From positions 99,093 through 163,092 of the forward strand of contig CANDCP010000001.1 of the NCBI GenBank assembly GCA_947383215.1: a DNA stretch of 64,000 bases, written 5' to 3'. The notes below the pieces were generated by a model. It had not been told where the DNA came from, did not search any database, and worked only from the letters and a program-made list of their open reading frames with translations. Of the stretch, positions 3,340 through 33,023 are shown in pieces. This DNA is from an uncultured Roseburia sp. Its GTDB lineage: Bacteria; Bacillota; Clostridia; Lachnospirales; Lachnospiraceae. Position 1 is the first letter of the stretch, and the number at the start of each line of letters is the position of its first letter. Position numbers and translations under genes: made by a program.

Positions 3340-4185
3340 ATGAAAAAAATAACGGACGAAGAACTATTGGATTTAATTGAAAAAGCGACTGCCGGAGATA
3401 AAAAGTCTCTGGAAACCGTCATTCTTGGCGTACAGGATCTAGTGTTTAACCTTTCCCTGCGTATGCTCGGCACTTTCCCTGATGCAGAAGACGCCACGCA
3501 GGATATCCTGTTAAAGATCATGACGCACCTGTCCTCTTTTAAGGGGGAAAGCGCATTTTCCACCTGGGTATTTCGCATTGCGACGAACCATCTGAAAAAT
3601 TACCAGAAGCATATGTTCGCAAAATTCCCCCTTAGTTTCGAATTCTATGGGGATGATATTAAAAACGGAAACATCGACGATGTCCCCGATCTCACGCAGA
3701 ATGTGGAGAAAACTATTCTGGCAGAAGAACTGAAACTGTCCTGCACGAACGTCATACTTCAGTGTCTTGATACGGAAAGCAGATGTATCTTTATCTTAGG
3801 GACGATGTTCAAGGTAGATAGCAGGATTGCGGGCGACATTCTGGGCGTCACCCCGGAAGCTTACCGGCAGAGGCTTTCCAGAATCCGTGCAAAAATGGCG
3901 GATTTCTTAAAGGAATACTGCGGCGAGTATGGAAACGGAACGTGCCGCTGCGCGGACAGGGTCAATTATGCCATCAAAAATCACAGGATCAGTCCTGCGC
4001 AGCTGTATTTCACTTCTGCCATCCCCCAAAGCACCGTGCTCGAAGTAAAAGAGGCTATGGAAAACATTGATGATCTTTCACAGGAATTTGCTTTTTGCAA
4101 AACCTATCAGTCGCCGGAAAGCCTGAAAGAATTTATCCAAAAATTCTTAGACGGAACCTCCTGTTCCGTTGTCATGAATGCGTAG
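3340..4185 (+). CDS. RNA polymerase sigma factor, ECF type with C-terminal extension
   Basis: A protein of 281 residues started at ATG 3340 with AGGAGG nine bases upstream. Sigma region 2 spans about residues 25-90 (LVFNLSLRMLGTFPDAEDAT, then the promoter-melting stretch FSTWVFRIATNHLKN). Region 4 with its helix-turn-helix spans about 140-190 (AGDILGVTPEAYRQRLSRIR). A further 90 residues follow that are not part of a minimal ECF factor; they begin with a Cys cluster (YCGEYGNGTCRC) and may bind metal or replace a separate anti-sigma factor. No anti-sigma gene is adjacent. The next gene is a DUF2461 protein. Target promoters cannot be read from this window. Confidence 0.85.
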   Translation: MKKITDEELLDLIEKATAGDKKSLETVILGVQDLVFNLSLRMLGTFPDAEDATQDILLKIMTHLSSFKGESAFSTWVFRIATNHLKNYQKHMFAKFPLSFEFYGDDIKNGNIDDVPDLTQNVEKTILAEELKLSCTNVILQCLDTESRCIFILGTMFKVDSRIAGDILGVTPEAYRQRLSRIRAKMADFLKEYCGEYGNGTCRCADRVNYAIKNHRISPAQLYFTSAIPQSTVLEVKEAMENIDDLSQEFAFCKTYQSPESLKEFIQKFLDGTSCSVVMNA

Positions 4186-4283
4186 GAGGAAGGCAAATGC
4201 GAAGCATTTCTGGAATGCCTTCCGACGAAATGGCAGGTGACGCAAAGCGGCGCGTGCCGCTACCAATTAGGAGGAACGAAAAA
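4186..4283 (+). promoter_or_regulatory. Structured spacer with two start sites before the DUF2461 gene
   Basis: This 98-nt spacer folds into two clear hairpins. The first is GGAAGGC (4188-4194) with GCCTTCC (4217-4223), enclosing AAATGC (4195-4200) paired with GCATTT (4204-4209). The second is AGCGGC (4246-4251) with GCCGCT (4256-4261). AGGAGG at 4184-4189 would serve an ATG at 4197 that is in frame with DUF2461 and adds 29 residues. A second AGGAGG (4269-4274) serves the usual ATG at 4284. The string GTGACGCAAAGC is shared with c-di-GMP-I riboswitches, but the rest of that fold is not evident. Confidence 0.4.
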
Positions 4284-4967
4284 ATGAATACACAGCTTAT
4301 TATGAATTACCTTTCGGATTTACGAGAGAACAATAACCGGGAGTGGTACCATGAACATAAAGCAGAAAACAAAGCGGCAAACACAGAATTTGAAGCATTG
4401 ATCGGGGCGCTGATCCTTCGGATCGGTGAATTTGATTGCAGCGTGCTGCATCATGAACCGAAAAGCCTTACCTTTAAGCTGGCGAGGGATACCAGATTCA
4501 GCCACGATAAGTCGCCTTATAATCCGGCGTTCCGTGCCCATATTTCTTCAAAGGGAAAGCTGCCGGTTCCCGTCGGCTATTATCTTATGATAAAACCCGG
4601 CGGACAGTCCTTTTTAGGCAGCGGCCTGTTTGCAGATATGTTCAAAGACGCAACGGCAATGGTTCGGGACTATATTGTCGAAAACGGCAGAGAATTTGAA
4701 AATATCATCCATGATCCGGAATTTGAGAAATATTTTTCGGTACAAGGATCGGCGCTTAAAAATGTCCCTGCCGGATATGATAAGGAACACCCGCAGGCAG
4801 AATACTTAAAATTTAAGAGCTGGTATCTGGAATATCCGCTCAAAGATGAAGAACTGCAGGACGCCGAACCATTTCTCACAAAGGCAACTGAACTTTTCCG
4901 CATTATGAAGCCGCTTAACGATTACCTGAATAAGGCCCTTGCAGGTTTTCAGATGCCCGCAAGGTGA
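4284..4967 (+). CDS. DUF2461 family protein
   Basis: A protein of 227 residues that begins MNTQLIMNYLSDLRENNNREWYHEHK, the standard opening of DUF2461 proteins (Leu-rich helix then NNNREWF/Y). Later conserved elements are RDTRFSHDKSPYNP, GYYLMIKPGGQSFLGSG and the LKFKSWYLEYP segment. The family has no established biochemical role. The start at 4284 matches family length and has its own AGGAGG. It follows the sigma factor on the same strand and may be co-transcribed with it. Confidence 0.85.
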   Translation: MNTQLIMNYLSDLRENNNREWYHEHKAENKAANTEFEALIGALILRIGEFDCSVLHHEPKSLTFKLARDTRFSHDKSPYNPAFRAHISSKGKLPVPVGYYLMIKPGGQSFLGSGLFADMFKDATAMVRDYIVENGREFENIIHDPEFEKYFSVQGSALKNVPAGYDKEHPQAEYLKFKSWYLEYPLKDEELQDAEPFLTKATELFRIMKPLNDYLNKALAGFQMPAR

Positions 4968-30205: not shown

Positions 30206-30320
30206 GCTCCTCTTATTTTGTGATTTTCTCAAATTATTTGTATTTTTCTGAATATTTATATTGTTTATGTATTTTAGTTTGTGATTTTAAAAACTTTTTT
30301 ATTTTTTTCTAATTTTATGC

Positions 30321-30349
30321 TTGACTTTTTGTCTCATGTCAGATATAAT
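30321..30349 (+). promoter_or_regulatory. Strong promoter of the putative large non-coding RNA
   Basis: -35 TTGACT (30321-30326) and perfect -10 TATAAT (30344-30349) are separated by exactly 17 bp and are preceded by an AT-rich stretch. It is among the best sigma-A promoters in the window, yet no open reading frame with a sound start follows. Confidence 0.75.
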
Positions 30350-30355
30350 CAAATC

Positions 30356-30934
30356 ATCAAAAGAAAGCAAGAACAAAATAAAAAAGAAAAGAGGGTGATT
30401 CCACCGAAAACGTAAACCTAACATCATAATCTAAGAAAGAGAGGTACGGTCCACCAGAAACTTAATTACTCATTCAGATGAATGAAAAAGGAAAAACGGT
30501 TGTCTTGATGAAAGGATGTATGAACAGGCGTCATCCGCAGGACACAGGGATATCTCAAGAAAAGGAAGGTACAGTCCATTGTGCAGATAATTCAACAGAG
30601 ATGATATTATATCATCTTAAGAGGGTCGGTAAAGTAATATAAGCACTCAAAGATGTGCAGATATCCGAAAAGAACAAAGAATCTATTCAGATTCAGTTCG
30701 GGAATTCAGAATCGAAAAATGAAACCATGAGGCAGAAGACAAAGGAAAAGGGATGGAGAATCAGCCAAGTACCTAATATATGGTTCCAATCCAAGAGAAC
30801 TCATTCGGAAGACATACAATCGAGAAGCAGAGTTCACGAGCCGAAGATGAAAACTTATAAAAAGGAAGGTACAGTCCCATGGACAGCATAGTTTAAAGGG
30901 CATCATCAATGAATATAAATTCTTGATGGTGCCC
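30356..30934 (+). ncRNA. Putative large structured non-coding RNA, about 580 nt
   Basis: This gene-free block runs from a near-consensus promoter to a 12-bp hairpin. It is markedly purine-rich on the plus strand. A motif of the form AAGGAAGGTACAGTCC occurs exactly at 30563-30578 and again at 30862-30877, with diverged copies at 30391-30404 (GGTGATTCCACC) and 30442-30454 (GGTACGGTCCACC). Perfect local hairpins include CATTC/GAATG (30471-30484) and AGATGATA/TATCATCT (30599-30617). It has no long frame with a ribosome binding site; a 78-codon frame at 30655-30891 is Lys/Ser-rich and lacks one. It does not look like RNase P RNA, tmRNA, 6S or SRP RNA. Its size is in the range of OLE, GOLLD and ROOL RNAs, but I cannot assign it. 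Confidence 0.55.
30898..30934. terminator. Hairpin ending the RNA block, facing the protease gene end
   Basis: GGGCATCATCAA (30898-30909) pairs with TTGATGGTGCCC (30923-30934) over 12 bp with one G-T pair and a 13-nt loop. The T tract is short on both sides. It can serve both the plus-strand RNA and the minus-strand protease gene, which ends at 30948. Confidence 0.6.
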
Positions 30935-30947
30935 TTGTCGTTGCCGC

Positions 30948-33023
30948 TTAATATTTTATTTTCTTTCCCGTTCCGGCCGCAATCAGCATCGCAAACATCA
31001 CAATTAATATCCAGGCCTCGGGGTTACTCTCATCTCCCGTCAGCGGCTTCTGGCTCGCCCGCACGGTCTTCTCGCTATCCGTTTTTATTTCCGCCTTATC
31101 CGGCTGTCTGCCAAGCTGCGGCTGCTCATTTAACGTTTCTTCCTCCGTCTCCGAATCGCTCTCGCTCCCATGCTCCGTGCTCTCATTCGGTTTTGCCCCG
31201 CTTTTTTTTCTGCGGACCACCTTCACGGTACACGTATCGAAAACATCGGGGGCCGCCGCGCACTTTGCCATAATAACCGCGTTCCCGGCCCTTATCCCCC
31301 TCACAACTCCCTCTTCGCTCACCTCCACCGCCGAAGCGTCAGAAGAGTTCCACAGGATTTGCGTGTACGACGTCCCCTCCGGCAGCACAGACGCCGTAAG
31401 CTGTACGCTCTCCCCGACGTCTATCTCAAGCGCGTTTTGCGAGAGCGATACGTGTTCCGCCGGCAGCACATAATCACTCGTAAACGCCTTTACACGCGCG
31501 GTCACGCCGTCCTCCGCCAGATCCCGCCAAACGCCGTCCTCTGACATAAAACTCTCCCCGGCCGAAATCTGATTTACAAAGGATATCCAGTTTCCGTTCG
31601 TGTACGTCTTATCCACAAAGAAACTGATCTCCTGCCCGCTTTCTTTGGAGAGCTGAATAACGACGCTAAACGTATCGCCGGCCGTAAGCAGCAGCTTCTC
31701 CGGCAGCGGCACCGTATAATACCCGACATAAGAGGTCCGCCCCTCCGCCGGCCCGGCCAAAAGCGGAACGCCGTCCGAGGGGTTTGAGCTGTCCACAGGA
31801 TTTTTGTAGATCTGTATACTGTAATCCACATTGACGTCAAAAAGAGCAAATGAAACCGCCTCGAGCGTCTGATAACGCGTTTTGATGCCGGAGGGAACCG
31901 TAAACACGTTTGCGATCGCATCCCGGCTTTTCACCCTGCTCCCGGTATCCTTAGTTTCACCATCCATATACGCGCCTGCGCTCCCGTCATATTGATAAAT
32001 GTGATCATAGTTTCCGGCGTCTTCAAACGCGAACACAAAGGCCTTGGCGCTGCTGCTTTTGAGCGCCGCATCCTCGTAGGATATCCAGAAATACCCTCCG
32101 TCCCCAAACGTAGTTCCAAAGCTGTTCTTTACCAGCCAGGCGCCGTCTCCCTTTGGCGTTCTCCCAAAGTTTTCTCTGCCGTAATTATCGTCCCATCCCA
32201 CAACAGCCACCGCATGGTTGACCAGCGTAACGCCCGGATTATAATACGACGCCTGATTCAGATAGGCGCCGGAGTAATATATGGATATGGCAGCCGAGCC
32301 GTGCTCCAATATCATGCGCTTTACCTCGTCGGAATCCTCACATAAATTAATCCAATACGCGTTTTGCAGATGGACGTCATTCGGGAAATCCGAAAAATTC
32401 AAATCCTCCCTCTCCCAATCCGCTTTGACTCCCTCCCCCGCAAGTCCCACCCAGTTCGCAAGTCCAAACGTTGTGAATATATGGTTCCCTCCTGCGAGCA
32501 GATAATCCGTCAGCGCAATATTTTTGTCCCCCTCGGTGTTTCCCATCTCATCCTGCGGGGTGTGATAGAAAAAATATGCCAAATGATCTTCGGATAAATC
32601 AAGACTGCCGTCTATCTGCGCTCCGCCTCCAACCGCGACATTCCTTGCAAGCAGATCCGATTCCGCCACGCTTACCGCGCTGTATGTCCAGCAGGTGTTG
32701 TCATTCTGCTCCTTCACCGGCGTCACAAATCCGGCTTCCCTCGCATCAAAATTAGACGGCAGCCCGCTCCCGTCTAATGGCGTTTCACTTTTTATCCCGC
32801 GCCGGACCTTCCTCACGTCCATCCCCCCGGAACTTGTCACGTCTGCCTGCGCGGCGTCTATCTCCGAATGGATGGAAGGCACCTCGATCTCATCCGCAAT
32901 GACGCCCGAAACGATTTGCTCCGCGTCAATTTCACCGGCGCAGACAAAAGCCCCCGCCGCAAACAGCGCTACGGCAGACAGCCGCCGCAGCTTTTTTAAA
33001 ATACGTTTCTCCGATAACCTCAT
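30948..33023 (-). CDS. Secreted papain-like (C1A) cysteine protease with lectin-like and Big2 domains
   Basis: A protein of 691 residues. Signal peptide at the N-terminus (LRRLSAVALFAAGAFVCAGE). Peptidase C1A core at about 95-345 with catalytic Cys in VKEQNDNTCWTYSAVSVAES, His in LVNHAVAVVGWDDNYG and Asn in WLVKNSFGTTFGDGGYFWIS. A lectin-like beta domain follows at about 350-530, then a Big2 Ig-like domain at about 535-610 (LEIDVGESVQLTASVLPEGT), a Ser/Glu-rich linker and a C-terminal membrane segment (ILIVMFAMLIAAG) with a basic end. It is therefore anchored at the cell surface. It is the last gene of the LytTR operon. Confidence 0.88.
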   Translation of the reverse strand: MRLSEKRILKKLRRLSAVALFAAGAFVCAGEIDAEQIVSGVIADEIEVPSIHSEIDAAQADVTSSGGMDVRKVRRGIKSETPLDGSGLPSNFDAREAGFVTPVKEQNDNTCWTYSAVSVAESDLLARNVAVGGGAQIDGSLDLSEDHLAYFFYHTPQDEMGNTEGDKNIALTDYLLAGGNHIFTTFGLANWVGLAGEGVKADWEREDLNFSDFPNDVHLQNAYWINLCEDSDEVKRMILEHGSAAISIYYSGAYLNQASYYNPGVTLVNHAVAVVGWDDNYGRENFGRTPKGDGAWLVKNSFGTTFGDGGYFWISYEDAALKSSSAKAFVFAFEDAGNYDHIYQYDGSAGAYMDGETKDTGSRVKSRDAIANVFTVPSGIKTRYQTLEAVSFALFDVNVDYSIQIYKNPVDSSNPSDGVPLLAGPAEGRTSYVGYYTVPLPEKLLLTAGDTFSVVIQLSKESGQEISFFVDKTYTNGNWISFVNQISAGESFMSEDGVWRDLAEDGVTARVKAFTSDYVLPAEHVSLSQNALEIDVGESVQLTASVLPEGTSYTQILWNSSDASAVEVSEEGVVRGIRAGNAVIMAKCAAAPDVFDTCTVKVVRRKKSGAKPNESTEHGSESDSETEEETLNEQPQLGRQPDKAEIKTDSEKTVRASQKPLTGDESNPEAWILIVMFAMLIAAGTGKKIKY

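Follow-up and report, generated by a model that had tools for sequence, protein, structure and literature searches.

A free-standing RNA family of Lachnospiraceae-type bacteria with candidate ribosome-binding modules and a five-codon ORF at its 3′ end

The RNA locus and its search against known families

The locus lies on the plus strand between a gene for a TSCPD protein upstream and a convergent gene for a papain-like protein downstream, and holds a predicted RNA with its own promoter and a terminator-type hairpin (Table 1; all coordinates are positions in the window, the whole stretch of 64,000 nt that was analysed). The downstream gene (30951-33023, minus strand) encodes a papain-like protease with lectin-like and Ig-like domains. 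An earlier sequence-only reading had proposed a near-consensus promoter, a purine-rich block of about 580 nt and a closing hairpin at 30898-30934, and all three were confirmed. The 583-nt RNA contains 12 GGA, and the minimum free energy of 30355-30940 is -129.6 kcal/mol (z = -3.55), with none of 100 shuffles equally low. No U-tract is present 3′ of the hairpin stem in the window copy; among relatives, the hairpin covaries in a 38-sequence alignment that was fitted to the model. A promoter scoring at least 10 of 12 was found within 1100 nt upstream of 101 of 109 homologous modules, as against 11 of 109 shuffled segments; these shuffles, like those for the stop-at-stem and inner-module counts below, preserve base composition only.

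Table 1. Features predicted at the RNA locus
Feature	Position	Strand	Remarks
Sigma-70-type promoter, TTGACT-17-TATAAT	30321..30349	+	11/12 consensus; predicted start near 30356
Whole predicted RNA	about 30356..30938	+	~583 nt; 63.6% purine
Start-less ribosome-site module 1, AAGAAAAGAGGGTGATTCCACCGAAAACGTAA	30384..30415	+	
Start-less ribosome-site module 2, AAGAAAGAGAGGTACGGTCCACCAGAAACTTAA	30433..30465	+	
Module 3, ribosome site and 3-codon ORF	30560..30590	+	ORF TTG TGC AGA TAA at 30579-30590
Conserved 3′ structural domain	30689..30940	+	covariation
3′-domain helices	30690-30694/30709-30713; 30727-30731/30800-30805; 30751-30762/30782-30792; 30819-30823/30841-30845	+	
Terminal ribosome-binding module, AAAAGGAAGGTACAGTCCC	30860..30878	+	
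Five-codon ORF, ATG GAC AGC ATA GTT TAA	30879..30896	+	M-D-S-I-V-stop
3′ hairpin, terminator-type	30896..30936	+	arms 30896-30909/30923-30936; starts at the stop codon of the five-codon ORF

The earlier statement that the block lacks a credible coding frame is correct as far as long ORFs are concerned. Frames of 54 and 78 aa were rejected as genes because gaps of 1-2 nt break them in an alignment of the two closest genomes. The minus-strand ORFs that cross the RNA in many loci were also dismissed, since a pyrimidine-rich strand is expected to yield such ORFs. What that statement overlooked are the conserved five-codon ORF and the three-codon TTG ORF listed in Table 1.

When the window was searched with Rfam 15 at the gathering threshold, no match was obtained at the RNA locus. 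At E ≤ 10 the only hit to the RNA region was to a snoRNA on the opposite strand (E 4.5), attributed to chance, and a search of 19 relatives at E ≤ 1 gave tRNA alone. The earlier reading had seen no feature assigning the RNA to OLE, GOLLD or ROOL, and the comparison with Rfam, raiA included, likewise gave no family match. ARAGORN predicted four tRNAs and no tmRNA in the window, and Rfam also had no tmRNA match at the locus. A divergent 6S RNA was considered and rejected, because 6S sits elsewhere in the same genome. Farther away in the window, a GA-cis RNA (RF02987, 45.1 bits, above the cut-off) occupies 4181-4268 of the plus strand, between an ORF that looks sigma-factor-like by eye and a frame near 4284.

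Distribution and the 3′ structural domain

The RNA is present in all eight genomes of the genus that were searched, its own genome included. Members include one in Roseburia inulinivorans DSM 16841 (L059). Of 397 family genomes, 67 matched a 3′-domain model (R1) at E ≤ 0.001, some of the weak ones through the terminator alone. With a 26-position pattern for the terminal module, 29 contigs were found in a collection with one genome per species; the contig titles name Roseburia, Agathobacter, Acetatifactor, Lachnospiraceae, Eubacteriaceae, Clostridiales or Clostridia. Model R2, which covers the last module in 92 positions, matched 157 of the 397 family genomes at E ≤ 0.001 and 112 at E ≤ 1e-5. 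It also matched 12 of 146 genomes in a sample of the order (8 outside the family, best E 3.9e-5) and 7 of 196 in a sample of the class (6 outside the family, best E 1.5e-5). Nine of these order and class alignments were inspected: L166 belongs to the same family, L169 is a real member from another family of the order, and seven appear to be bare terminators, so that chance matches are many and real ones few where E lies between 1e-5 and 1e-3. Among 19 genomes of the second family, matches were found in 2 (members L169 and L181). The former has three mini-ORFs, all starting M-D (MDSE, MDREAIF and MDNR), and the latter has MYNE followed by MDDR as the last one. For a possible phage origin, viral contigs were searched with two exact patterns (terminal ORF and inner motif) and none carried them; the sole viral contig with the 16-mer gave no R2 match. 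On this comparative evidence, the RNA is a real family, widespread in Lachnospiraceae-type bacteria.

The proposal that the RNA is structured, for which covariation among homologues had been named as the check, was borne out in the 3′ domain. In the eight sequences of the genus, the 43 proposed pairs are 95.2% paired and nine of them are changed on both sides. The covariation score of 0.252 exceeds that of all 500 shuffles and drops to at most 0.076 when the partners are slid, although two of the five covariation measures are weaker ("change on both sides", 11/500 shuffles; "further pair types", 423/500). In an alignment of 38 sequences, which was fitted to the model structure and leans towards it, double changes are seen in 36 of the 43 pairs, and pairing reaches 98.2% and 94.6% in the two central helices. 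The fourth is weak, with 72.5% and 71.2% of its cells paired.

This genuine covariation speaks for a structural scaffold, similar in kind to OLE or raiA, in which the mini-ORF would be an accessory, for example by means of a bound ribosome that protects the 3′ end. In PMC8708949, it is reported that a ribosome at a strong Shine-Dalgarno (SD) site before a six-codon mini-ORF protects the transcript. We regard a scaffold as unlikely in view of the lengths of the RNAs. In a set of 101 RNAs, the lengths of which depend on the best predicted promoter, 13 measure about 125-205 nt; the folded middle domain cannot fit into them and the modules stay (their promoter, ribosome site, terminal ORF and terminator being present by selection of the set). 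L109 and L122 are among the short members. The folded middle would thus be dispensable, and it resembles an accessory of some clades, with ribosome engagement as the core. Within the genus, the seven RNAs that are uncut by a contig end measure about 374-585 nt, and they differ chiefly in the 5′ half, where entire modules are present or absent; the promoter, the motifs and the 3′ domain are retained. A long version with a shared middle near GCATCCGACCTTGTATTTTCGGAATGGAGA was observed in L048, L053, L054, L057, L064, L065 and L075 (one base differs in L075) and is missing from the window RNA.

Ribosome-site modules and the terminal ORF

The exact 18-mer AAAAGGAAGGTACAGTCC is repeated at 30560-30577 and 30860-30877. 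It had been described as a 16-base repeat at 30563-30578 and 30862-30877; the recurrence is real and the first coordinate was off by one base. Two diverged relatives that had been noticed near 30391 and 30442 were also found, and correspond to modules 1 and 2 of Table 1. The repeated motif, with the consensus AAGAAAGGAGGUACGGWCC, is a putative ribosome-binding module. Elsewhere in the genus, the ORF of module 3 reads ATG CAC ACA TAA, TTG CAC ACA TAA, ATG CAG AGC TGA or ATG CAG AAG TAA.

Across the 101 RNAs, 131 copies of the inner modules were found in 92; RNAs without an inner module number 9 by one count and 14 by another. The start position is occupied by CCN in 88 of the 131 copies, and the third triplet after it is a stop in 69 of these 88, compared with 7 and 0 for the two alternative frames at that place. 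ATG (16), AAG (10) and ATC (8) occur at the start position of the other 43. Start-less modules with a near stop number 164, as against 18 after shuffling. Inner NTG minigenes of 2-6 codons, among them ATG TAC TAG and ATG AAA ACT TAA, number 22 in 18 of the 101 RNAs and 0 after shuffling; they were counted only, and the selection test was applied to the terminal ORF.

The median duplex energy with the 16S tail is -11.1 for inner modules and -9.2 for terminal ones, compared with -2.9 over all 17-nt segments. As an SD, the terminal site is of ordinary strength, the ORFs of the window giving -9.0 as the best among candidate starts, and its predicted accessibility is middling (median unpaired 0.49). 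Complementarity between motif and 16S extending beyond the SD was considered and abandoned, the gain over shuffles being merely 1-2 kcal/mol. The start-less modules keep the letters CCACC..UAA, which a plain SD site does not need, and their UAA persists where no start is apparent, so that some other binder may recognize them. We infer that ribosomes, rather than another protein, bind the start-less modules.

Sponge RNAs of the CsrB/RsmZ type are stand-alone, purine-rich and carry repeated GGA-containing motifs. The present RNA shares these traits, and its GGA motifs might titrate CsrA. The sequence-only reading had offered structural modules or sites for a GGA-binding regulator, of which the repeated modules stand and CsrA is at most optional. 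The window genome encodes csrA, and the association of the RNA with csrA is weakly positive (odds ratio 1.6, p 0.03 at E ≤ 1e-5; 2.0, p 0.01 at E ≤ 1e-8; 1.3, p 0.26 at E ≤ 1e-3). A sponge is nonetheless improbable in our view. As many as 43 of 112 RNA-bearing genomes, some with incomplete assemblies, have no match to CsrA (PF02599), and CsrA does not seem to be required; host-encoded CsrA is found in the window genome and not throughout the family. Moreover, in the motif an SD core precedes a constant CCA, and the last copy also has a reading frame behind it.

The terminal module consists of the SD, about 9 nt closing with UCC and one base, NTG GAY ... stop and then the terminator, and its typical mini-ORF is M-D-S/E-I-V-stop. 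The 129 matches of at least 34 bits were used and near-identical ones removed, leaving 109, collected with a model that itself includes the consensus start. Left out were L105, which duplicates the match of L039, and a match in L049 (38.9 bits, without a terminator) that reads ATG GAC AAG ATA GTT TAA. From among the matches listed, 60 R2 matches were examined and six were dropped by eye (L148, L151, L154, L155, L158 and L161); four of these resemble bare terminators, and L151 and L155 read ATG-GAA-...-stop without the UCC anchor.

The start codon is ATG in 79 of the 109 modules, TTG in 29 and GTG in 1, and all 109 have an in-frame stop (TAG 49, TAA 48, TGA 12). Five codons are found in 89 ORFs, six in 14 and 7-12 in 6; the commonest peptides are MDSIV (23) and MDEIV (20). 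Among the 89 five-codon ORFs, single-base codon differences are synonymous in 57% of cases in frame, compared with 16% and 25% in the other frames, as pairwise counts that are mutually non-independent. Measured from the terminator stem, the end of the stop falls between -6 and +8 nt in 106 of 109 modules and in 57 of 60 modules held out of model building, which are the fairer test, compared with 31% of shuffled ORF bodies. The corresponding numbers are 63/109 (21/60 held out) in the +1 frame, where they are numerous because the common ATAGTT contains TAG, and 11/109 (11/60) in the +2 frame. An earlier score based on folding was low (36/109) because the fold pulled the stem into the ORF, and a stem search was used instead. 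The terminal ORF is very probably translated, and the description of the RNA as being without a coding gene is not supported at this point, since the last copy of the module opens a conserved ORF. A hairpin GUCC-NAU-GGAC was considered as the cause of the constant GAY codon and set aside, as the association is weak (p 0.04; outer pair in 88/109 vs 83.0 when shuffled, with 69 of 2000 shuffles equally high) and UCC is also retained in inner ATG modules without GGA.

Residue 2 of the terminal peptide is acidic in 101 of 109 cases (Asp 92, Glu 9), the last residue is Val in 70/109, and Lys, Arg or His is found in just 13/109. The peptide itself may matter, because residue 2 is so constant, and five-residue peptides acting on their own ribosome are known in the macrolide E-peptides. 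A formylated M-D-S/E-I-V pentapeptide could accordingly be the product, acting on the ribosome or as a signal, with the RNA as its mRNA. We hold this to be unlikely, given that the inner minigenes encode unrelated peptides (MKT, MHT, MGS, MY), that the terminal peptides vary in length (5-12) and at residues 3-5, and that the start-less modules would be left without explanation.

A short ORF directly ahead of an intrinsic-type terminator is also the layout of leader-peptide attenuators, so the mini-ORF might be the leader peptide of a transcription attenuator controlling the downstream gene. The gene order makes this very improbable. The next gene is convergent in the window and in 33 of the 48 loci with more than 700 nt downstream, which argues against an attenuator in most loci; in the other 15 it is on the same strand, at least 111 nt beyond the stop. 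Neighbours also differ among clades: no common neighbour gene was found among 123 neighbour proteins, in which the largest clusters, on either side of the RNA, have 7 (aspartokinase by eye) and 5 members (TSCPD). The RNA is free-standing.

Engagement of ribosomes as a candidate function

By comparison, the RNA is conserved, structured in part of the family, free-standing and under selection for translation of its terminal ORF. Its start-less SD modules, minigenes and terminal ORF count for ribosome engagement, which is probably the core function. For the whole, the best explanation is a free-standing Lachnospiraceae-type RNA for engaging ribosomes, acting as a translation brake or buffer, to which we give a little less than an even chance. 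The narrower claim of a sink or brake for translation capacity is somewhat less secure, and is the first mechanism on which to bet. Still more tentatively, the RNA might represent a new class, a "ribosome sink", in which an array of start-less and minigene sites, closed by a mini-ORF next to the terminator, would keep ribosomes bound or cycling and thereby set the capacity for translation in Lachnospiraceae.

According to this mechanism, a strong promoter would produce the RNA and, in most members, at least one module with strong SD complementarity would dock 30S subunits. Most docking modules would be start-less and some would open minigenes of 2-6 codons. The last module would start a mini-ORF, usually of five codons (typically fM-D-S/E-I-V), finishing at the 3′ hairpin, and on this ORF and the inner minigenes ribosomes would start and terminate within a few codons. 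The outcome may be an altered supply of free ribosomes or local re-initiation cycling; we infer a translation brake or buffer rather than a peptide signal.

Bar-type minigenes, known from a phage, combine an SD with an ORF of a few codons and lead to peptidyl-tRNA drop-off. The present copies share the strong SD and the very short ORF with a stop, and the terminal ORF appears to be under selection for translation; they differ in that the RNA carrying them is conserved and stand-alone, and also bears start-less copies and, at its terminator, a conserved last mini-ORF. CsrB/RsmZ sponges are likewise stand-alone with GGA repeats, whereas the present motif is a ribosome site; attenuators likewise have a short ORF abutting a terminator, whereas the present RNA has no same-strand next gene in 33 of 48 loci. 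The RNAs raiA, GOLLD, ROOL, 6S and tmRNA are alike in size or stand-alone layout but gave no Rfam match. To our knowledge no family has such an anatomy, and in this respect the class is new. According to PMC8708949, minigenes may be toxic or stabilize the transcript, and a strong SD permits ribosomes to re-initiate without dissociating. OLE, a ~600-nt RNA of Bacillota, is, as proposed for the present RNA, physically tied to translation; by the passages of PMC12054373, which mention no ORF in it, OLE binds bS21 and contains a mimic of the anti-SD. It differs in having an anti-SD, where the present RNA has SD-like sites and no Rfam match to OLE.

No description of the RNA was found in the literature searched, which did not extend to supplements and subscription papers; the main text of PMC8040213 has no mention of Roseburia or Lachnospir-, and its supplement may hold an unnamed candidate. 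Such an RNA, being no normal protein gene and yet not purely non-coding, would escape ordinary gene finding. If the explanation is correct, a widespread RNA class absent from Rfam exists in common gut bacteria (112/397 sampled family genomes at E ≤ 1e-5). It would offer a clean system for the behaviour of ribosomes on start-less SD sites and five-codon ORFs, and would allow one to ask whether cells deploy minigenes deliberately for tuning translation.

The array can be followed in a relative of about 1.4 kb (L026, 409-1812), for which 12 modules are listed before the terminal one. Eight of the 12 open ATG ORFs of 3-6 codons, two further ATG modules read on without a near stop, and neighbouring modules are spaced by 61-81 nt in eight of 11 cases. 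In L021, L050, L073 and L049, the RNA or its last module was observed in tandem, the second copy being short in L021 and L050.
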